A stretch of DNA of 20,626 nucleotides, from IMG/VR virus record IMGVR_UViG_3300043313_001533, positions 1-20,626 of that record; one strand, 5' to 3'. Positions 338-18,076 of the stretch are shown here, in pieces. The notes below the pieces were generated by a model. The model ran no database searches, was not told where the DNA came from, and worked only from the letters and a program-made list of their open reading frames with translations. This stretch comes from a virus. Position numbers and translations under genes: made by a program. Position 1 is the first letter of the stretch, and every line of letters begins with the position of its first letter.

Positions 338-366
338 TTGACAGCGTACCTCGGCTGTGGTACAAT
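338..366 (+). promoter_or_regulatory. sigma70-like promoter for the 407-1344 gene pair
   Basis: TTGACA (338-343), 17-base spacer, TACAAT (361-366) preceded by TGG. Transcription should start near 373, giving a leader of about 34 bases before the ATG at 407. Confidence 0.75.
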
Positions 367-406
367 TAGAGACTGGCCAATCAGGGTCAGGTGGAGCGAG
401 GATAGC

Positions 407-1120
407 ATGGCACGAAGAGCGAACGCAGGATTTAAGAGCAACAAGGCCGAGCGCCAAGCCGAACTGGGCAAGCGCCACGCGGCGCGAATATTGGCGAGCG
501 AAATCGAGCCACCCAAGCCCGAAGTAGAAACCAATCCAGAAGTAGAGCACCTCGACAAGACCATCGAGGGAGTGGAGAAGGCGATCGACAATACCAACGA
601 CCCTGCCGAGGCAAAGCGCCTGGAGAAGGTGGTGGACGGATTAGAGGAAGCAAAGGAGGAAGTTAATAATGAAGGCGGCGATGTGGACAGTGGCTTGGGT
701 GACGTGGGCGGCGACAAGGTGGGTGATGAAGAGGCTGTGGAAGGAGATGGTGAAAGAAAGCCGAGCAGCGTCGTAAAGCCGGTGTTCAAGGAGCGCTACG
801 CCGCAAATGCCCGCGAATTGGGCGTCAAGGGCAAGGCCGCAAAGCGCTCGAATTGGGACTGGCTGGCGCAAGAGATCGCCAAGTTCTGCCTCACCGACAA
901 GCACGCCATCCGAATGGACGACTTCAAGGCGCTGCTGAAAGCCAACGGGATCGACCATAATAAGTGGCCGAACCAGTCGCGCGGTTGGGAAGGCAGGCTA
1001 AGAATGACGGGTCGGGTCGCGTTGCAGCGAATTGTCGCGGACAGCGGGGTGCTCAAGTTCCCGGACGAGACCGAAGCCAAAGCCCCCATGGACTTCATCC
1101 TGAAGTACAAGGCCAAATGA
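407..1120 (+). CDS. hypothetical phage protein with conserved WDWLAQ/GWEGR C-terminal domain (paralogue of 3456-3983)
   Basis: The 237-residue protein starts at the ATG at 407, after GGAGCGAGG and 34 bases downstream of a promoter; an in-frame upstream start at 338 would overlap the -35 box and is rejected. Residues 1-30 are basic, 35-120 are low-complexity and acidic (Glu/Asp/Gly-rich, probably disordered with a helical stretch near 50-88), and 121-237 form a compact domain. The domain carries KRSNWDWLAQEI (147-158), NGIDHNKW (180-187) and GWEGRLRMTGRVALQRIV (193-210). The same motifs recur in the leftward gene 3456-3983, so the two are paralogues with unrelated N-terminal tails. I know no function for the family. 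The basic, Trp-rich core could bind nucleic acid, but nothing here proves it. The stop overlaps the start of the next gene (ATGA). Confidence 0.85.
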   Translation: MARRANAGFKSNKAERQAELGKRHAARILASEIEPPKPEVETNPEVEHLDKTIEGVEKAIDNTNDPAEAKRLEKVVDGLEEAKEEVNNEGGDVDSGLGDVGGDKVGDEEAVEGDGERKPSSVVKPVFKERYAANARELGVKGKAAKRSNWDWLAQEIAKFCLTDKHAIRMDDFKALLKANGIDHNKWPNQSRGWEGRLRMTGRVALQRIVADSGVLKFPDETEAKAPMDFILKYKAK

Positions 1121-3455: not shown

Positions 3456-3983
3456 TCAGTTGCGGAACTTCGCCACCCAGTCGGCGGGGGCTTCGACCAG
3501 ATCGGTCTCGCCGCCTTCGGCGAGGATCGCCATCGTGCCCGCTTCGGCCACAACCCGCTGGAGTGCCAAGCGGCCTGTCATCCGGAACCGGCCTTCCCAG
3601 CCTTTGGACTTGTTGGTCCAGCGGCTGTGATCGACCCCGTTCAGTTCCAGAATGCGGCGGAACTTCTCGATGTCGATGCGCTGGCGTTCGTCGAGGCATT
3701 GGGCGGCGAGGGTCTGGGCGAGCCAGTCCCAAGCGCTGCGCTGCGCGCACTTCCGCTTGTCGCCGTGCGCGACGGCCCGTTCCGCGTAGCGGTGCTTGTA
3801 CTTGGGCAGCACGACGCTGTGCTTCTTCTCGTTGTCGACCGCCACTTCCGCGTCGACTTCGACCGGTTCCTCGGTCTTGGGTTCCACGTAGTGCTCGCCC
3901 GCCAGCAGCTTCGCTGCCGCGTCGTTGGCTGCGACGACTTCTGCGAGGGTGGGGGCGGGGGTCTGCTTCTGCTTGCGTGCCAT
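3456..3983 (-). CDS. hypothetical phage protein with WDWLAQ/GWEGR domain (paralogue of 407-1120)
   Basis: The 175-residue protein starts at 3983 (GGAG nine bases upstream), not at the longer frame end at 4097, which would lie upstream of the promoter. Residues 1-55 are variable, Ala/Glu/Val-rich and probably disordered. The domain from 57 carries LPKYKHRYAERA, RSAWDWLAQTLAAQCL (82-97), IDIEKFRRILELNGVDHSRW (103-122) and GWEGRFRMTGRLALQRVVAEAG (128-149). These match 407-1120 over about 110 residues at clearly more than one third identity by eye, so the pair arose by duplication or from two related phages. It is a single-gene transcript with its own weak promoter next to an operator-like repeat, so it is probably regulated. 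Function unknown. Confidence 0.85.
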   Translation of the reverse strand: MARKQKQTPAPTLAEVVAANDAAAKLLAGEHYVEPKTEEPVEVDAEVAVDNEKKHSVVLPKYKHRYAERAVAHGDKRKCAQRSAWDWLAQTLAAQCLDERQRIDIEKFRRILELNGVDHSRWTNKSKGWEGRFRMTGRLALQRVVAEAGTMAILAEGGETDLVEAPADWVAKFRN

Positions 3984-4050
3984 GGTCTGTTGCTCCGTTC
4001 GCCGGGGGAGGGGGGCGGCCAATCCGCCCTTGCGCCCCACCAGCAAGGAC

Positions 4051-4079
4051 ATCTTACCACGCTCGTACGCGCGTGCCAA
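4051..4079 (-). promoter_or_regulatory. weaker promoter for 3456-3983
   Basis: On the minus strand TTGGCA (4079-4074), 17-base spacer, TAAGAT (4056-4051) preceded by TGG. Both hexamers deviate from consensus more than those of the other promoters here. The operator-like repeat at 4080-4096 abuts the -35 box, where an activator would sit; its centre is about 44 bases upstream of the predicted start. Confidence 0.6.
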
Positions 4080-4175
4080 TGTGACAGAGTGTCGCAATTG
4101 TGCGCACAGACTGGCACGCTGCTTGCATTTGCAAGACTCGTGCCACAGATCGTGTCAATGTGACACAGTGTCGCA
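4080..4175. promoter_or_regulatory. symmetric operator-like array: two dyads flanking a central palindrome
   Basis: A 17-base near-palindrome TGTGACAnAGTGTCGCA occurs at 4080-4096 (n=G) and 4159-4175 (n=C); with flanks the copies match at 19 of 20 positions and are 79 bases apart. In the middle, TGGCACG (4112-4118) and CGTGCCA (4139-4145) enclose CTTGCA (4122-4127) and TGCAAG (4130-4135). The centre of this inner palindrome (about 4128) is the midpoint of the two outer copies. The layout suggests binding sites for a dimeric regulator with possible DNA looping. The half-sites resemble CRP-type TGTGA..TCACA but the spacing is one base too long. Confidence 0.6.
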
Positions 4176-4323: not shown

Positions 4324-4384
4324 GGTATTTTTCAGCCCATCAACGCGAAAACTTGGACATAACTACAGATGTTCCGGTCCCAAC

Positions 4385-4413
4385 TTGACACGGCCCGCTG
4401 CACGTGTTACTAT
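4385..4413 (+). promoter_or_regulatory. sigma70-like promoter for 4459-5695
   Basis: TTGACA (4385-4390), 17-base spacer, TACTAT (4408-4413) preceded by TGT. Predicted start near 4420, giving a leader of about 39 bases. Confidence 0.75.
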
Positions 4414-4458
4414 GTGCGCAGCATAGCACGTATGTACCTCTTTATTTGGGAGACCAGA

Positions 4459-5058
4459 ATGGCAGAGGCTAAGTCAACTGCAGGCCCTTATGACCAGTTT
4501 ATTGGCGAACTCACCCCCGGAGACTACGGATGGCTCCCTTTGGATGAAGCTGGCAACCCAGTTGCCCCGGCAACCATCCAACCCCCTCGCATTGGGGAAT
4601 ATCCTGGAGCCTGCCATGTTTATTTGGCTGACAACGGGGAGTTCCTCACAGCATCGGGAGCACCGTTGAGTCCCCCTCTACAGTCCAACGTGGAGAAGAG
4701 AGTCAATGAAGGCGAGGAAACCCCTCCCCCTCTCATTTTGGCTCTCAACCCGAATACGGCGATATCGACAGACCCAACAGACATCGATATGATTATCGAT
4801 GGGGAAGGGTTCACAGAGAACTCAGTCATAGTGTTCAACGGGTATGATGAACCAACGACGCTTCTGTCGCCCACGCAAGTGAGTACAATCGTGAAGCCGA
4901 GCATATTCGGGGTTGCGGTGTGCCCGGTATTAGTGCGCGGCGAAGGGGGCGACTCGAACACGTTGGAATTCGAATTTACAGCCCCGAGCGGCGGGACGCG
5001 GCGACAAGACGACGAAGGGAGGGACGATCCCAGTATACTTCGTAATCGGAAAAGGTGA
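4459..5058 (+). CDS. IPT/TIG Ig-like domain protein, probable virion accessory or decoration protein
   Basis: The 199-residue protein starts at the ATG at 4459 with GGGAGA upstream and a promoter 46 bases before; a longer frame from 4369 would cover the promoter. Residues 15-72 form a module (GELTPGDYGWLPLDEAGNP ... FLTASGAPLSP) that recurs in the next gene. Residues about 92-175 read as an Ig-like IPT/TIG fold: PPLILALNPNTAISTDPTDIDM then IDGEGFTENSVIVFNG and a C-terminal strand LEFEFTAPS. The tail (178-199) is basic and probably disordered. Ig-like domains of this kind commonly decorate phage heads or tails. The position directly before the packaging module fits a structural role, but no enzyme motif is present and the exact site in the particle is unknown. 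Confidence 0.75.
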   Translation: MAEAKSTAGPYDQFIGELTPGDYGWLPLDEAGNPVAPATIQPPRIGEYPGACHVYLADNGEFLTASGAPLSPPLQSNVEKRVNEGEETPPPLILALNPNTAISTDPTDIDMIIDGEGFTENSVIVFNGYDEPTTLLSPTQVSTIVKPSIFGVAVCPVLVRGEGGDSNTLEFEFTAPSGGTRRQDDEGRDDPSILRNRKR

Positions 5059-5095: not shown

Positions 5096-5695
5096 ATGGC
5101 GATGACACCAGAAGAGCAACGCAAAGCGGAAGAAGAGACGAAGCGTAAGGCTGAGGAAGCCAAGCGCCAGCAGGAATCAAAGCAGCAAGACGAGCAGCGT
5201 CGCAAAGAAGAAGAGCGCTCGCGTGTCGAGAAGCAACGCGCCGAGCGCGCGGAACGTTCTGCCGGCGAACACCAAAAGAGGGGTCGCGGCACTGTTGGTG
5301 GCTTGAAAGTATCCTCGTCCCGCGAAGAGCGTGTCGAGCGGCTTGAGAAGCAGCTTGAGTACGAACGCAACAAGATCGAGAACGCGGTCGATCCCCACGA
5401 ACTCGTAGGCGAACTGGGCCACGGCGAACTGGGTTGGGTCGAACTCGACGAAGAGGGAATGCCGACCGGACCGGCTCAAAAAGAACCGCCCCCGCTCGGA
5501 ACCGTTGCGGCGCGCGTCGTTGGATACTTCCCAACTCAAGACGAACTCGTAACCCCGTCTGGAGCACCCGTAACCGACCAGATGAACCCGGCCCCGGACT
5601 TCCAGGACGCCGGAATGCAGGCGCGCAACCCGCCGCCGGATGTGCCCCTTGATCCGAAGGGCGTCCCGGTGGTCAACACGCCGGTACAGGTCTGA
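5096..5695 (+). CDS. coiled-coil protein with module shared with 4459-5058
   Basis: The 199-residue protein starts at 5096, nine bases after GAGGAG; an ATG five bases earlier is in another frame and stops at once. Residues 4-56 are almost entirely Lys, Arg, Glu and Gln (a long charged helix or coiled coil), and 74-97 form a second helix (REERVERLEKQLEYERNKIE). Residues 104-162 (GELGHGELGWVELDEEGMP ... LVTPSGAPVTD) align with residues 15-72 of the upstream protein. The C-terminus is Pro-rich. It is 37 bases downstream of 4459-5058 and shares its promoter. The architecture suggests an oligomeric structural or scaffolding-type partner of that protein, but no family is recognised. Confidence 0.75.
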   Translation: MAMTPEEQRKAEEETKRKAEEAKRQQESKQQDEQRRKEEERSRVEKQRAERAERSAGEHQKRGRGTVGGLKVSSSREERVERLEKQLEYERNKIENAVDPHELVGELGHGELGWVELDEEGMPTGPAQKEPPPLGTVAARVVGYFPTQDELVTPSGAPVTDQMNPAPDFQDAGMQARNPPPDVPLDPKGVPVVNTPVQV

Positions 5696-5785: not shown

Positions 5786-5815
5786 TTGACAGGCCGGTAG
5801 GCGGCGTGTTATAAT
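5786..5815 (+). promoter_or_regulatory. consensus promoter for the packaging module
   Basis: TTGACA (5786-5791), 18-base spacer, TATAAT (5810-5815) preceded by TGT. Both hexamers are perfect. The expected start (about 5821-5822) coincides with the A of the terS ATG at 5822. Confidence 0.85.
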
Positions 5816-5821
5816 GTTGCA

Positions 5822-6337
5822 ATGGACGGAAACGATAAAATCGACGATGGGATTCCCGGCGATCTTGTCGCTCTTCCGACCATGCCTTACTCCGAAAGAC
5901 CAGCTGAACTCCCTTTGGATGTCGAAGAGTGCCGAACTGCCATTTGGATGGCTGCCGGAAACATCACGGATGCGGCGAAACTACTTAAAATCACATCCAT
6001 TCGGTTAAGAAATTTCGTTAAGAAGTCCCCATATCTGTCCGCCGAAATGCAAGAAGCAGCGGACCGTATCGTAGATATCGCGGAGAAAAACGTTGTCGAA
6101 GCCCTCACCGACGAGTTGGACCCGGGCCGCAGGGATACCATGTCCAGATTCGTACTATCCAATATTGGGAAGCATCGTGGGTGGGGAACTGCAGGTAGCG
6201 GAAACGTCAACATCAAAAACACCGCAGGTGGAACTATTGTCGTCCAGTGGCAAGACGGATCAACTTTTGGCGAACAGAAACCGGAAGAAGGAGAAATAAT
6301 CGATGTCACAGCCCATGCAAGAACAGAATCACAATGA
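5822..6337 (+). CDS. terminase small subunit-like protein
   Basis: The 171-residue protein lies upstream of terL, where the small terminase subunit recognises the packaging site and hands DNA to the large subunit. Residues 34-70 form a helix-turn-helix type segment (VEECRTAIWMAAGNITDAAKLL ... RLRNFVKKSP). Residues 75-120 are helical with a conserved-looking end (FVLSNIGKHRGW), as in many small terminases; the last 50 residues are a variable tail. There is no ribosome site. The ATG falls at the predicted transcription start, so the message may be leaderless; the next in-frame ATG (residue 21, at 5882) has no site either. The gene overlaps the next by 35 bases. Confidence 0.75.
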   Translation: MDGNDKIDDGIPGDLVALPTMPYSERPAELPLDVEECRTAIWMAAGNITDAAKLLKITSIRLRNFVKKSPYLSAEMQEAADRIVDIAEKNVVEALTDELDPGRRDTMSRFVLSNIGKHRGWGTAGSGNVNIKNTAGGTIVVQWQDGSTFGEQKPEEGEIIDVTAHARTESQ

Positions 6338-6533
6338 CGAGCGTTCTGATGTGTTCCGTCAGACCTACCAAGACCTCACAAGCGACCAGAAAGATGACAT
6401 CATGAGGGTCAAGAATTTGGCTCGCATGATGAATGAATTCCTCGACAACCTGAAACCCTCCAGAGAAGTTTCTTTGGCTAAGACGAAGCTGGAAGAATGT
6501 GTGATGTGGGCGACGAAATCGATCACAAAATAG
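6303..6533 (+). CDS. probable Acb2/Tad1-hairpin-domain protein (anti-CBASS/Thoeris type cyclic-nucleotide sponge)
   Basis: The 76-residue protein starts at 6303 after GAAGGAG and overlaps the end of terS. The C-terminal 45 residues read VKNLARMMNEFLDNL.PSREVSLAKTKLEECVMWA.K. This fits the small helical hairpin seen in phage Acb2/Tad1-domain proteins as I know them: a helix with xxVKxx.., a turn ending in SRE, then a helix with A.TKLEEA.MWA.K. Members of that family form multimers that bind cyclic di- or trinucleotide signals and blunt CBASS or Thoeris immunity. Position between terS and terL does not suggest packaging. The assignment rests on the motif alone; ligand binding is unproven, and it might be a structural relative with another job. 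Confidence 0.6.
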   Translation: MSQPMQEQNHNDERSDVFRQTYQDLTSDQKDDIMRVKNLARMMNEFLDNLKPSREVSLAKTKLEECVMWATKSITK

Positions 6534-6543
6534 GGGCAAAGTC

Positions 6544-6846
6544 ATGGCAGAGCGTCAATTATCCGAAGAAGAACTCAAAAAGCAGCGCGACAGGGCTTCG
6601 GGCAAGCTTCGGTTGTCCCCGGAGGAACTGAAGAAGCAAGAGCAACACTTCGAATACATCGCACATCTTATGAACGCGATCCAAGTCGGCAAACACTTCC
6701 AAATGTATTTAGATAACCTGCCGAAAGGCCCCGCCGCGAACAAATCGTCTAGCGACAGCCACAAGAAGGTTATGGCCTATTTGGATGAGTTGAAGCGGGA
6801 TGCCGACGAGGTTGCGAGAAAGTTCCACGCGCAGAGCATTACATAA
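6544..6846 (+). CDS. hypothetical 100-residue helical protein
   Basis: Starts at 6544 with AGGGG nine bases upstream and 11 bases after the preceding stop; its TAA overlaps the terL ATG by one base. Residues 1-33 are charged and contain two similar stretches (LSEEELKKQRDR and LSPEELKKQEQH). Residues 34-60 hold HFEYIAHLMNAIQVGKHFQMYLDNL, then a Lys/Ser linker, then a charged helix to the end. All-helical and likely cytoplasmic. I do not recognise it. The position beside the Acb2-like gene makes an accessory role as likely as a packaging one. Confidence 0.65.
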   Translation: MAERQLSEEELKKQRDRASGKLRLSPEELKKQEQHFEYIAHLMNAIQVGKHFQMYLDNLPKGPAANKSSSDSHKKVMAYLDELKRDADEVARKFHAQSIT

Positions 6847-8168
6847 TGGAAGCAATCCAGCGTGAGGATGAAGTACCCCGGATAACTATTCCGTACACGC
6901 CTCGGGTGCACTTCCTACCGATGCACGCTTCGAAAAAGCGCTGGATATTCGTGGTAGCACACCGAAGGGCTGGGAAAACGGTCGCGCTGTGCAACAAAGT
7001 AATCCGGGGTGCGTTGGAAAACAAAAGGGTATTCCCACCGCCCCGTTACGCATATATTGGACCCAGCTTCGCCCAGGCTAAAGACCTCGTTTGGGGGTAT
7101 TATAAATACTACACCGGGGTTCTACCCCGGGTTAAGGTAGTAGAAGGAGATCTGCAGATCGTCCTCCCCAATTCAGCGATGATAAACCTATACGGGGGCG
7201 CTGCCGCTTACGAGCGGATGCGAGGCTTGTATTTCGATGGCATTGTCGCGGATGAGTACCCACTTCTTAATCCTTCTATGCTTGGTAGCGTGGTGCGGCC
7301 TTGTCTCGCTGATTACCAAGGTTGGGCTGTTATTTCTGGTACAAGCGCCGGAGACGACCACTTCCACGAACTCAAGAAGCGAGCCGAAAAAGACGACTCG
7401 TGGGACATCTACTCCATTCCCGTAACCGATACCGATGCGCTTCCCGAGGAAGAAGTCCGGGAGATGCGGAAGGATATGACGGCGGACGAGTTCGCGCGCG
7501 AAATGATGTGCTCTTTCGATGCGCCGATCGAGGGTTCGTACTATGGGGAAGTACTCAACGAGATTTCTATCGCAGGGCAGATTACTGGTGTTCCGTATGA
7601 CCCCAATGCTCTGGTAATGACATGGTGGGATTTGGGCATCGACGATGAGATGGTTATTTGGTTCGCGCAGATTTGCGGCAGAGAACTCCATGTCATCGAC
7701 CACCTACAAAACACTGGAAAAGGATTAGACTGGTATGTCGGACAAATCAAATCCAAGCCGTACCAATACGGGGTCCACGTCCTCCCTCACGATATTAAAG
7801 CCCGAGAACTTGGAACCGGGGTCTCCCGAAAGGAAGTTCTTGACGGCATGCTTCCAAACACATTCGTATGTCCACCCCACACCGTCGAGGATGGAATATC
7901 AGCAACTAGAGCTGCCATTCGAATGATGTGGTTCGACCGGGTTCGAACAGAACCTGGCGTAACCGCGCTGCGGAACTACCACAAAGGCCCTGCCGGGAAG
8001 CCGGTCCACAATTGGGCAAGCCATTCGGCGGATGCCATACGAATTGGTTCTGTCGCGCTGAACATGATCCGACCGATGGTCGGAGGTACCAATGTGATCG
8101 GCATTGGGTCAGGCGCGTTGAAGCGCGGTTTGAAGCGAATGGATAATGGGCCGAGGAGATTGCGATGA
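6846..8168 (+). CDS. terL: terminase large subunit
   Basis: The 440-residue ATP-driven packaging motor and nuclease cuts concatemeric phage DNA and pumps it through the portal. The ATPase domain has a Walker A of the VAHRRAGKT type (37-45), Walker B GIVADE (132-137) and the coupling motif SGTSAG (164-169). The C-terminal nuclease domain carries WWDLGIDD (261-266), LPHDIK (313-318) and SHSADA (392-397), which supply the acidic residues D262, D316 and D396 expected for an RNase H-like fold. Length and motif order are normal for the family. Its ATG overlaps the preceding TAA, and its TGA overlaps the portal ATG. Confidence 0.92.
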   Translation: MEAIQREDEVPRITIPYTPRVHFLPMHASKKRWIFVVAHRRAGKTVALCNKVIRGALENKRVFPPPRYAYIGPSFAQAKDLVWGYYKYYTGVLPRVKVVEGDLQIVLPNSAMINLYGGAAAYERMRGLYFDGIVADEYPLLNPSMLGSVVRPCLADYQGWAVISGTSAGDDHFHELKKRAEKDDSWDIYSIPVTDTDALPEEEVREMRKDMTADEFAREMMCSFDAPIEGSYYGEVLNEISIAGQITGVPYDPNALVMTWWDLGIDDEMVIWFAQICGRELHVIDHLQNTGKGLDWYVGQIKSKPYQYGVHVLPHDIKARELGTGVSRKEVLDGMLPNTFVCPPHTVEDGISATRAAIRMMWFDRVRTEPGVTALRNYHKGPAGKPVHNWASHSADAIRIGSVALNMIRPMVGGTNVIGIGSGALKRGLKRMDNGPRRLR

Positions 8169-10318
8169 ACGCGCACGAACGAGTATTTGATAACGGCGTC
8201 GTCGGCGGCCAGTTAGGGTTGGATTCCACTATTGTTGGAACTGAGCCGGACGAAACCGTATATGAAGCGACCGTCGCGGCGATGATCGAAGATGCCCGCA
8301 GCTTCGAGGAGAGCGTCCTTGGGCCGGATCGTGACGATAATCTTCAATTCTTTTATGGCGAGTATCCGGCGCAAGAGGGCACAGGAAAATCCTCCGCTGT
8401 ATCGACGGATTTTCGTGATACTGTTATGGCTATCCTTCCTAGCCTTATACGTATATTTACTTCCACTGAAAGAGTAGCGAACTGTACGCCGAACTACCAA
8501 GGCCAAGAGGAAATGGCCAAGCAGTGCACCGAATATCTCAACTATATCCTTTGGGAGGATAACAACGGGTTTCTAATCCTTCACGATGTCATCAAAGACG
8601 CTCTCCGTTGCAAGATCGGCGTCATGAAATGGTATACCGAAAATTTCGACGAGGTGACGGAGCAAGAATTCCACAGTGTGACCCGCGAGCAGTTCCAATA
8701 TTTACTCAGCGAGAATCCGACGCTGCAAGTGTTGGACGCACAACCCGACCAGAATAATCCGGAAGTCCTTGATAGCCTTCGGATACGTTTTGTGAAGTCC
8801 GCACCCCGCGTCTGCATCCATTCGGTACCACTGGACGAATTTCGGATTTCTAGAAAGGCCAAAGACGTCGATAATGCCCCGCTGATTGGTCACGACCAAA
8901 TCGTGAACGTCTCCGTCTTAGTGGAGCAGGGCTATGAACTGGAGGAAATTGCAGAGTTCATGCACACGACGCCTGACAACTATTCGACAGATCGTCTTTT
9001 CCGAAACCGGGGACTGGACGAAGGCGACCTTACTGACGCTTGGGATATTCGGTATGGCTGTTACTTTATTCGTATCGACAAGGACGGGGACGGAATCGCT
9101 GAACTACGCGAAATACACACTGTCGGTGACGATCATCATATTCTGTATGATGAAGTGGCTCAGTACCCCAACTTCGCTGTTTGGTGCCCTGATCCTGAAC
9201 CTCATACTTTGGTTGGCGATACTCCTGCCGATCTTGTCAAGGATATCCAAATAATCAAGACGAACATGCTCCGGGGTTCCCTGGACTCCTTGGCCCAGTC
9301 TATTTGGCCTAGGACAGTGTTCAACCAGACCACGACTAATTCCGACGACGTGTTGAACGATGAAATTGGTGCTCCGATCCGAACTACCGGCGATCCGGCC
9401 AGTTCCGTTATGTCGGTTAACCATCAGTTCGTCGGGCAACCCGTCTTCGCTATGTTCGAAATCATGGAAGGTCTCCGCCAAGCCCGCACGGGCATTTCGG
9501 ATGCGTCGAAAGGCGTTGACCCCCGCGCGTTGCAGTCTACCAATGTTACTGGTATTGACGCAATCGTGCAGGGCGCACAAGAACGCATCGAGTTGTGCGC
9601 CCGAATTTTAGCTGAGACAGGAATGAAGCAGCTGTTCAAGGGGGTCCTTCGGGAGATCGTGAGCAGCCCAAACCAAGAACGAACTGTTCAACTCCGGGGA
9701 AAGTGGACCAACGTAAACCCCTCCACTTACGACCCCACGATGCGCATTTCGGTTAACCCGACGCTCGGTAAGGGTTCCGACATGACGCGGCTTATGATTC
9801 TACAAGACGTCAAGCAAACCCAGACTACCGTAATGACCCAGTTCGGTGTCGAAAATCCGCTTTGTGGCATTCAAGAATTCCGCAACACCCTCACCGATAT
9901 TTTGGCCATCGCGAATGTCAAGAACGTCGGGAGGTATTACCGTGAGATTGACGAAGCGACTATTCAGCGCATCGCGCAGACACCGAAGGAGCCGGATGCT
10001 GCAACACTTCTCGCCCAATCAGAGATGGAAAAGAACCGAGTTAAGATGGCAACAGAGATTTCCAAGTCGAACTTCAACGACCGAAAACTCCGTGTGGATG
10101 ATGACTTCCGCCGGGATGAAATGATGGTCAAGGGAATTCTCGACGCCGCTAAGATCGAAGCCGAATACGCCGTGGACGTGAACGAGGCTGAGTTCGAAGC
10201 TGAAAATACACCCGTCGAAGAACAAGCGCCAACGCCTCCGCCAATTCCAGTACCGAATGTGGCAGGGCCAGTAATGGGAGCAGCCGGTGGAATCGAACCA
10301 GGACAAGCGCCTGTCTAA
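8165..10318 (+). CDS. portal protein (P22-type, podovirus)
   Basis: The 717-residue protein begins in an ATGA overlap with terL, with a strong GAGGAG site six bases before. It should form the dodecameric ring at one capsid vertex, the gate for DNA entry and exit and the docking site of terminase and tail. Size, an acidic N-terminus, YLNYILWEDNNGFLILHDVIKDALRCK near residues 120-150 followed by GVMKWY, and a charged helical C-terminal half fit the P22-like portal family. The last 50 residues are Pro-rich (PVEEQAPTPPPIPVP). It overlaps the next gene by 32 bases. Confidence 0.88.
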   Translation: MNAHERVFDNGVVGGQLGLDSTIVGTEPDETVYEATVAAMIEDARSFEESVLGPDRDDNLQFFYGEYPAQEGTGKSSAVSTDFRDTVMAILPSLIRIFTSTERVANCTPNYQGQEEMAKQCTEYLNYILWEDNNGFLILHDVIKDALRCKIGVMKWYTENFDEVTEQEFHSVTREQFQYLLSENPTLQVLDAQPDQNNPEVLDSLRIRFVKSAPRVCIHSVPLDEFRISRKAKDVDNAPLIGHDQIVNVSVLVEQGYELEEIAEFMHTTPDNYSTDRLFRNRGLDEGDLTDAWDIRYGCYFIRIDKDGDGIAELREIHTVGDDHHILYDEVAQYPNFAVWCPDPEPHTLVGDTPADLVKDIQIIKTNMLRGSLDSLAQSIWPRTVFNQTTTNSDDVLNDEIGAPIRTTGDPASSVMSVNHQFVGQPVFAMFEIMEGLRQARTGISDASKGVDPRALQSTNVTGIDAIVQGAQERIELCARILAETGMKQLFKGVLREIVSSPNQERTVQLRGKWTNVNPSTYDPTMRISVNPTLGKGSDMTRLMILQDVKQTQTTVMTQFGVENPLCGIQEFRNTLTDILAIANVKNVGRYYREIDEATIQRIAQTPKEPDAATLLAQSEMEKNRVKMATEISKSNFNDRKLRVDDDFRRDEMMVKGILDAAKIEAEYAVDVNEAEFEAENTPVEEQAPTPPPIPVPNVAGPVMGAAGGIEPGQAPV

Positions 10319-15683: not shown

Positions 15684-17276
15684 ATGGCTGATGAGCTTAC
15701 TGTTAATTTGGGTCTGATCAAACCTGAAATCGGGGGATCTGACGACACTTGGGGCGAAAAGCTGCATTATAATTTTGACATCATCGATGCAGCTATTAAG
15801 GAGGCTGGAAGCGGCGGAGATAGCGGAGGTAACGGAGATAACGGGACTAGTGTCACTATTTCGGAGTCGCCACCTAGTACTTCAACGCCGGGAAATTTAT
15901 GGTGGGAAAGTGATACGGGTATTTTGTATATTTACTATGACGACGGAACTTCGTCGCAGTGGGTGTCAATCGGTGGAGGTAGTAGTTCGTCGTTAGCCTA
16001 TACTTCTGACACGGCTCCGCCTAATCCGGTTGATGGAATGTTATGGTGGCGCTCTAGCGATGGTGTTCTTCTCGTTTATTACGACAATGGTGTTTCTCCG
16101 CAATGGATGCCAGCATCTAATTTGTTGGTTCACACTTCCGACATTGCTCCGTCAAATCCGAAAGACGGGACGCTGTGGTGGCGCTCTAGCGATGGTGTTC
16201 TCCTCATTTATTACGACGATGGTACTCCGGAATGGACGTTAGCGTCTCCCGCTAGTAGTTCAATTGCTACCAAAAATTACATCTTGAATAGTGCGATGAT
16301 GGTGTCGCAGCAGAACGGTTCAACAGCGCTGCCGCTAAGCCAATCTGGTACGCCCAGTGGTTATCCGGTGGATGAATGGCAAGGTTCATTGGCTAGCTCC
16401 GGAACGCTTACTGTAGCACAAGTGGCGTCAACGACCCCGGCAGGGAGTCCAAATCGGATACGATGTACGGTGTCTGTGGCCGATACAACGGTCGATGCTT
16501 CTGATCTTATTTTGCTTATCCACAGGATAGAAGGTTTCCGCATCGCTGATCTTATGTCGGGCACGGCTAGCGCAAAGACGGTTACGTTAGCATTTGGCGT
16601 CAAGGCACCAGCCGGGACTTACGGCGTTACGTTCTACAATAGCGCGGCTAATCGTTCGCGCGTTGAGACGTTTACCATTGCAGCAGGTGAAGCTAATACC
16701 GATGTGCGTAAGACTATAACGTTGCCTCTCGATACAACCGGTGCATGGCAAATTAACAATTTAGTCGGGCTGACGGTTGCGTTTGTGTTGATGTGCGGCA
16801 CGAATAACCACACCACGGCTGGAGCGTGGGCGGCAACATGGAAAGCATCGACATCGGCACAATTCAACTTAATGGCGTCTACTAGCAACATTTTTGAATT
16901 GTTCGACGTGTCTCTGACAGTAGGAACTACTGCTCCCGCATTTGTAGTGCCGAACTATCAAAGCGAATTAACACTGTGCAAGCGATACTACAAACGGTTT
17001 GGCGGCAAGCAAACTCACGATCTTGATCTTAGCGCTGGATACATTGATGCAGCGGATTACGCTAGGTTCCAGCTATTCTTTGATGTAGAAATGCGAGACG
17101 CCCCAACCTTCTCGCTTATAGGCACTTGGTCTTACCAAAATGTCACTGGTGCGCTTACAGGAGGTTATCTGTCGGCAGATACTGCTTCTCTTACATTGTT
17201 GGCTACTGCTGGCGGCAAGGTGCGCGGTTGGAATAACGCAGCAGGAGCAGGTTTTTCTTTTAATGCGAGGCTATGA
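15684..17276 (+). CDS. tail fibre protein with three tandem W/Y repeats
   Basis: The 530-residue protein starts at 15684, with AGGG ahead. Residues 1-38 (VNLGLIKPEIGGSDDTWGEKL ..) are a tail-anchoring module shared with 18098-19096. Residues 45-60 are a Gly-rich linker. Three repeats follow at about 62-93, 109-141 and 152-184, each with P.NP.DG.LWW.S.DG.L..YYD(D/N)G...W. From about 195 the C-terminal half has the beta-rich pattern of phage receptor-binding regions: NYILNSAMMVSQ, PVDEWQGS, then LTLCKRYYKRFGG near residue 428. It would bind the host surface at the tail tip. No enzyme motif is visible. Confidence 0.8.
   Translation: MADELTVNLGLIKPEIGGSDDTWGEKLHYNFDIIDAAIKEAGSGGDSGGNGDNGTSVTISESPPSTSTPGNLWWESDTGILYIYYDDGTSSQWVSIGGGSSSSLAYTSDTAPPNPVDGMLWWRSSDGVLLVYYDNGVSPQWMPASNLLVHTSDIAPSNPKDGTLWWRSSDGVLLIYYDDGTPEWTLASPASSSIATKNYILNSAMMVSQQNGSTALPLSQSGTPSGYPVDEWQGSLASSGTLTVAQVASTTPAGSPNRIRCTVSVADTTVDASDLILLIHRIEGFRIADLMSGTASAKTVTLAFGVKAPAGTYGVTFYNSAANRSRVETFTIAAGEANTDVRKTITLPLDTTGAWQINNLVGLTVAFVLMCGTNNHTTAGAWAATWKASTSAQFNLMASTSNIFELFDVSLTVGTTAPAFVVPNYQSELTLCKRYYKRFGGKQTHDLDLSAGYIDAADYARFQLFFDVEMRDAPTFSLIGTWSYQNVTGALTGGYLSADTASLTLLATAGGKVRGWNNAAGAGFSFNARL
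16044..16223 (+). repeat. tandem direct repeats inside the fibre gene, 132-base period
   Basis: Segments beginning at 16044 and 16176 are identical over 26 bases (starting TGGTGGCGCTCTAGCG) and remain similar to about 16091 and 16223. The 132-base step equals 44 codons. They encode the second and third W/Y repeats of the fibre; the first copy (around 15900) is more diverged. Confidence 0.8.
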
Positions 17277-18076
17277 TGGCTGCGTTTGATTTTCCATCTT
17301 CCCCAACTGTTGGTCAGATAGCTAACGGTTATACTTGGGACGGCGAGAAATGGGTGCTTCCGGAATTTGGCGGTACTCCGTTGGTTTCTAAGGCAACGAT
17401 CGCCTTTTGTTTTGATACTTACAGATCCGCCTACGACAACGCTGCGTTGACGTTCATGACTGATTTGGGATTTGTCGGGACATTTTTTATGGTTCCGGAA
17501 AGCATTGATACGGGTGGTCAACTATCGAGCGACGAGCTTGCTATATTGTTTGCTAAGGCGTGGGAAATAGGGGCTTATGCTTCGAGCGCTGACTTATCTA
17601 AAAACTTGGCACAGATGTATGATACCGATCGTAAGTCGGTGCTGCTGCGGTTCAAGGTGATACAAGACTTAATGCATGCCAAAGGTATGCCGGTGCACGC
17701 AATAGCTGCCATGCAACGTACGACACTGCATCCACAAATTACCGAAATGGCGCGACCGTGGTTCAAAGTGGTTCGTGTTGCGGGCGAAATGGAATTTGCT
17801 ACATATCCAATTGTCGAACCGCTATACCTTATTAAAGGTGGCGGTTCCAATTCGCTTAGTTCAACCGACACCATTGCAAGCTTAAGCGCTACACTGGATG
17901 CATGCATTGCGGTCAAGGGTTTGTGGTGTCCTATAATTCATGAAGTGGGCACGCCAGCATCTGCAACCAAAGTTGACCCGAGTGTGCTTAGCGGATTTAT
18001 GAGTTATTGTAAAACTAAGGTGGACGCTGGTTTGTTGCGCGTAACAACATTGTCGAAAGCGATGCAACCAGCGTAA
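17273..18076 (+). CDS. NodB-like (polysaccharide deacetylase-fold) tail protein, catalytic site altered
   Basis: The 267-residue protein starts at 17273 in an ATGA overlap with the fibre gene. Residues 5-29 (FDFPSSPTVGQIANGYTWDGEKW) are a short module typical of phage tail proteins. From 41 a NodB-like fold appears: ATIAFCFDTYRSAYDNAALTFM then LGFVGTFF (66-72) and EIGAYAS (98-104), with a late IIHEVG (221-226). Active family members remove acetyl groups from surface polysaccharides at a metal site. Here the first motif is FDTY instead of the usual (T/S)FDDG, and the HSxxH-type motif is replaced by YASSADL; D48 and H223 remain. It may be inactive, use another chemistry, or just bind glycans. 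Confidence 0.6.
   Translation: MMAAFDFPSSPTVGQIANGYTWDGEKWVLPEFGGTPLVSKATIAFCFDTYRSAYDNAALTFMTDLGFVGTFFMVPESIDTGGQLSSDELAILFAKAWEIGAYASSADLSKNLAQMYDTDRKSVLLRFKVIQDLMHAKGMPVHAIAAMQRTTLHPQITEMARPWFKVVRVAGEMEFATYPIVEPLYLIKGGGSNSLSSTDTIASLSATLDACIAVKGLWCPIIHEVGTPASATKVDPSVLSGFMSYCKTKVDAGLLRVTTLSKAMQPA

Follow-up and report, generated by a model that had tools for sequence, protein, structure and literature searches.

A predicted Acb2/Tad1-family hairpin protein encoded at a swap site between a putative small terminase gene and the large terminase gene of a virus

The window analysed here, a 20,626-base virus record from IMG/VR, encodes a small protein that is predicted to fold into two helices and belongs to the Acb2/Tad1 hairpin family. 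Very probably it is a sponge, most likely homo-hexameric, for host nucleotide immune signals, and its gene stands at a swap site between a putative small terminase gene (terS) and the large terminase gene (terL). The hexamer, the ligand, the anti-defence effect and the timing are features that we infer. The family (PF24729) is already known, its tested members sequestering the small nucleotide signals with which bacteria respond to phages, and the newer part is the locus; in titles and abstracts of the literature, searches combining Acb2 with terminase, and anti-defense hotspots with the terminase small subunit, returned no description of this location. The features of the region are listed in Table 1.

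Table 1. Features of the region around the hairpin protein gene (positions in the window)
Feature	Position	Strand	Evidence or remark
Perfect sigma-70-like promoter, TTGACA-N18-TATAAT, TG before -10	5786..5815	+	12/12; upstream of putative terS
Putative small terminase subunit, 171 aa	5822..6337	+	Homologues: OH p59, relatives upstream of terL
Predicted Acb2/Tad1-family hairpin protein gene, 76 aa	6303..6533	+	PF24729 63.5 bits; Foldseek top 18 all Acb2/Tad1
Acb2_Tad1_hairpin domain	6363..6530	+	Profile 1-58 of 58, full-length match
Codon of Y22	6366..6368	+	Equivalent of T4 Vs.4 Y8 and PaP2 Acb2 Y11 (T4: cGAMP stacking)
Codon of K37	6411..6413	+	Equivalent of T4 Vs.4 K23 and PaP2 Acb2 K26
Second-helix signature SREVSLAKTKLEECVMWATK	6459..6518	+	R, E, T, K, E, M, W near-invariant across relatives
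ORF100, second gene of the interval	6544..6846	+	Stop overlaps terL start; one clear homologue (L066)
Large terminase subunit, 440 aa	6846..8168	+	PF03237 35.6 bits; PHROG terminase large subunit
Portal protein	8165..10318	+	phrog_1216 portal protein, 371 bits

Identification and family assignment of the 76-aa protein

The gene starts with ATG, has a Shine-Dalgarno-like GGAG ∼10 bases 5' of the start and shares its first 35 bases with the end of the putative terS. A preliminary description of this DNA had placed an open reading frame here and quoted a hairpin pattern from its product; the boundaries were exact and the pattern is present in the 76-aa protein (VKNLARMMNEFLDNLKPSREVSLAKTKLEECVMWATK). 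The frame is a gene rather than a chance frame, because it has a Pfam match at 2e-17, its relatives are encoded on 43 viral contigs and dN lies far below dS in type A, the window's own type. For the unsaturated pairs of type A homologues dN was 0.14-0.52 and dS 1.2-2.0, while nearly all pairs involving the window's own gene were saturated at silent sites (pS 0.73-0.93, pN 0.31-0.43). dN was well under dS in type A pairs and likewise in pairs of a second group, type B; purifying selection acts on type A.

The Acb2/Tad1 family had been guessed from the hairpin pattern, and a profile search bore the guess out, with PF24729 matching at 63.5 bits (E 2e-17), far over its curated gathering cut-off of 27 bits. 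The same profile had zero matches among 14 control genomes, and an NCBIfam search of four genes returned no match. The closest solved protein by sequence was 'Acb2 homolog 43' (PDB 9ptq), matched by phmmer at E 1e-5, and an alignment-profile search also reached Tad1, T4 Vs.4 and PaP2 p26.

An AF2 monomer model built from 28 sequences (pLDDT 87.5) contained helices at residues 27-48 and 54-75 and no strands; it had no N-terminal helix before the hairpin, and residues 1-20 were of low confidence (pLDDT 60-64). When the model was compared with the PDB by Foldseek, ranks 1-18 were exclusively Acb2 or Tad1 chains, the best E-value being only 0.1. T4 Vs.4 (7uq2) was the top match by both Foldseek and VIA, and the VIA-align Z scores (6.5 to 7uq2, 6.2 to 8h2x and 5.7 to 9ptq) were tied with that of an unrelated helical protein, 3gnl (Z 6.1). 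Helical hairpins are common folds. The fold backs the sequence result and could not have carried the claim by itself, since the VIA Z scores lie within the range of unrelated helical proteins. By profile match and model together, the 76-aa protein is assigned to the Acb2/Tad1 hairpin family.

Comparison with solved relatives and the predicted ligand pocket

Tad1 (7uav, 8kbb) shares the hairpin, with an RE-A-T-E-MW signature in its C-terminal helices, and has an N-terminal antiparallel beta-sheet domain followed by helices (PMC12043709). The window protein, with its 76 aa and strandless model, lacks the beta-sheet domain and is therefore Acb2-like in layout. Homolog 43 has the same short loop, an RE-S-KTKLEE signature and a comparable length, but FF replaces MW in its second helix and identity is ∼30%; its structure title records 3'cADPR as the ligand, and no open publication on this protein was found in the literature. 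T4 Vs.4 shares the second helix (IAKTKL..A.MWA) and has a loop ∼20 residues longer (26% identity). PaP2 Acb2 (p26; 8h2j, 8h2x) likewise consists of two long antiparallel helices, but is 93 aa long with a longer inter-helix loop and 23% identity, and its gene adjoins replication genes whereas the window gene lies between terminase genes.

In T4 Vs.4, Y8 and F82 stack cGAMP, while Y8, H11, K23 and R79 hold it, and affinity fell more than 5-fold in Y8A and more than 25-fold in F82A (PMC10097602). In the window protein the alignment places Y22, L25, K37, K72 and T75 opposite these five residues (Y8, H11, K23, R79 and F82, in that order). The Tyr and Lys are thus kept, and their Tyr-x14-Lys spacing, which is independent of gap placement, is shared exactly with T4 Vs.4 and PaP2 Acb2; in PaP2 Acb2 the pair also stands in the same Y-x-D-L-S/T context. 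Of 28 relatives, 25 have Tyr at position 22, and every one has Lys or Arg at position 37. The pocket, as read from the alignment, is compatible with nucleotide binding, although the sequence does not specify the ligand, and the Y22/K37 pair suggests that a dinucleotide-type pocket between two protomers may be retained.

Two of the five T4 pocket residues are lost (H11 to L, F82 to T) and a third, R79, is changed to K. These changes would fit a protein of the family that no longer binds ligand, or one with another small-molecule or protein target. We consider this improbable, as type A is under purifying selection and both lost residues are also missing from PaP2 Acb2, which has Leu and Ala at those positions (and Arg at window K72) and was nevertheless solved with cGAMP (8h2j); the missing F82 and H11 are therefore not fatal to the sponge reading.

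Neighbouring genes and other features of the record

The preliminary description had set the gene between terS and terL, where its expression from the terS promoter would be early to middle. The terL assignment was confirmed (Terminase_6N, PHROG), while the small subunit is putative and the interval also contains ORF100. Aligned relatives conserve the putative terS upstream of terL; no library names its product as TerS, and relatives gave weak HTH matches. The region contains seven sigma-70-like sites against 2.3 expected, and sites comparable to the promoter in Table 1 (9-12 of 12) precede the putative terS in some relatives and are absent in others. No terminator-like site was found on the + strand from the promoter to position 8300, so the 76-aa gene is probably co-transcribed with terL. 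Host assignment by TerL among GTDB genomes gave no result.

Elsewhere on the record, 338-1120 (+) and 3456-4097 (-) encode a homologous pair in opposite orientation (47% identity over 137 aa; no Pfam match). The neighbours upstream of terS, 4369-5058 and 5096-5695, have a 59-aa segment in common, 39% identical at E 3e-12, and neither is matched by Pfam or PHROG. The tail-region protein at 17273-18076 resembles a polysaccharide deacetylase by eye (FCFDTYR...TFFMVPESI) and had no match in Pfam.

The terS-terL interval in related phages

The nearest isolate by TerL is Ochrobactrum phage vB_OspP_OH (59% identity), in which terL follows the putative terS directly at a distance of 17 bases, with no gene between them and zero PF24729 genes in the whole phage. 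Several further relatives likewise have no gene between the putative terS and terL, while a PF24729 gene is present in 27 of the 72 related records searched. A clade was defined by TerL identity of at least 71%, comprising 38 dereplicated loci that carry both putative terS and terL. In these loci the gap between the two genes has a median length of 419 bases (5 to 1794), and 22 of the 38 gaps contain a PF24729 gene, with three types represented. All the PF24729 genes found in the clade lie in this interval, except in L088, where the gene stands just before terL on a contig too short for terS. The more distant L098 and L099 have the gene upstream of terS, and the L111 record has it elsewhere.

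The three types are distinguished by their sequence patterns: SREVSLAKTKLEEaVMWAvKsIT in type A, RVRESFNPS...YEEAAMWAVKaaTT in type B and EYLKPTdeQ...DGPDKTY..RKLREVAMWANVAIT in type C. Types B and C each matched type A in hhalign at E 2e-11; the type B profile gave chance matches only against the PDB, apart from a weak match to Vs.4. Two types occur together at one locus in L051 (A and B) and L081 (B and C). A clean swap separates the type C locus L076 from the type A locus L079, with identity of 97% as far as the terS end and of 90% from ∼21 bases before terL, and L068 and L071 differ by the gain or loss of a single gene.

Turnover was assessed on the TerL tree of the clade, where the presence of PF24729 changes 14 times against 13.2 for shuffled labels and the type 9 times against 9.6, a coarse measure since the tree was built quickly and many of its branches are weak. 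Shuffling the labels thus gives about as many changes as are observed, for presence and for type alike, which indicates that exchange of the gene is fast compared with the backbone.

If the protein instead helped the terminase in packaging or DNA binding and shared the hairpin fold by chance, this would account for the position of its gene, which lies directly in the packaging module and, in the window as in most relatives carrying such a gene, begins within the 3' end of the putative terS. However, OH and several relatives have no gene at this position, and OH lacks the family entirely; one of the three types can stand in for another while the surroundings stay almost identical, as the L076/L079 pair shows; and the PaP2 member is encoded outside the packaging module. 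A helper role is therefore very unlikely. Type A genes also occur in the packaging module of other phages, before the portal gene in L008, after it in L009 and just before terL in L011.

Other genes share the site. In L055 (2592-2810) and L090 (2738-2971) a Tad2-like gene (PF11195, 81-85 bits) lies in the terS-terL interval alongside the PF24729 gene, and thus two unrelated sponge folds share the site. Further cargo of the interval includes an amidase and small membrane proteins. Across this phage group the interval from the terS-like gene to terL serves as a cargo site. In the L103 record a Tad2-like gene lies ∼1.4 kb upstream of terS.

These Tad2-like genes, named for Thoeris anti-defence, also bear on which signal would be bound. 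A sponge directed chiefly at a Thoeris-type cADPR signal, rather than at CBASS nucleotides, would agree with them, with the 3'cADPR in the structure of homolog 43 (9ptq, E 1e-5), the closest solved relative, and with the missing stacking residue F82 of T4. Against this, the Tyr and Lys of the cyclic-dinucleotide pocket stand at exactly the T4 and PaP2 Acb2 spacing, PaP2 Acb2 has no F82 either and yet was solved with cGAMP, and relatives in the family can bind several signals simultaneously (PMC12043709). A chiefly Thoeris-directed sponge appears rather unlikely on balance. The broader reading as a nucleotide-signal sponge, which the preliminary description had proposed, is supported by the PF24729 match, the first ranks of Acb2/Tad1 chains in the fold search, the retained pocket Tyr and Lys and the Tad2-like genes in the interval of relatives.

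Type D hairpins and ORF100

A further hairpin pattern, type D (GSSERTSAKARAEEALAYLQKL), was found in about nine loci. Pfam PF24729 matched just one of ten type D members, and weakly (E 0.011). The type D profile matched type A in hhalign at E 1e-5, scoring 30.8, where none of 60 column shuffles exceeded 13.3; circular rotations retained much of the score and were unusable as a control. Type D has neither the N-terminal Tyr nor MW, and its AF2 model matched generic helical hairpins and no Acb2 in Foldseek, so that the kinship is argued from the profile comparison.

No homologue of ORF100 was confirmed among viral contigs; among the TerL relatives there was a clear one in L066 and a weak one in L056 only. 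In profile comparison, ORF100 distantly resembles the type D hairpins found in relatives. A direct relationship of ORF100 to the type A hairpin was considered and found unsupported, the profile link reaching type D only.

We tentatively suggest, as a possibility short of an even chance, that the terS-terL interval of this uncultivated phage group may be a dedicated, fast-exchanging counter-signalling island. Type D and an ORF100-like type E could then be divergent sponges that take up additional nucleotide signals, and at loci where they accompany a canonical Acb2-like gene they would widen the range.

Discussion

The preferred reading is that during infection the 76-aa two-helix protein most likely assembles into a homo-hexamer, which would bind second messengers of host immunity and keep them from their effectors without cleaving them. 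The signal could be a cyclic di- or trinucleotide of CBASS or a cADPR isomer of Thoeris. The gene lies in the interval from the putative terS to terL, which is where this phage group gains, loses and swaps such sponge genes.

The gene predicts that hosts encountered by this phage use nucleotide signalling in immunity. Of greater importance is the locus, a site of known boundaries that is occupied by interchangeable sponge types and by Tad2-like genes. The L076 and L079 pair represents a natural experiment in the swapping of sponge specificity, and the terS-terL site is a place to mine for new sponges of immune signals.
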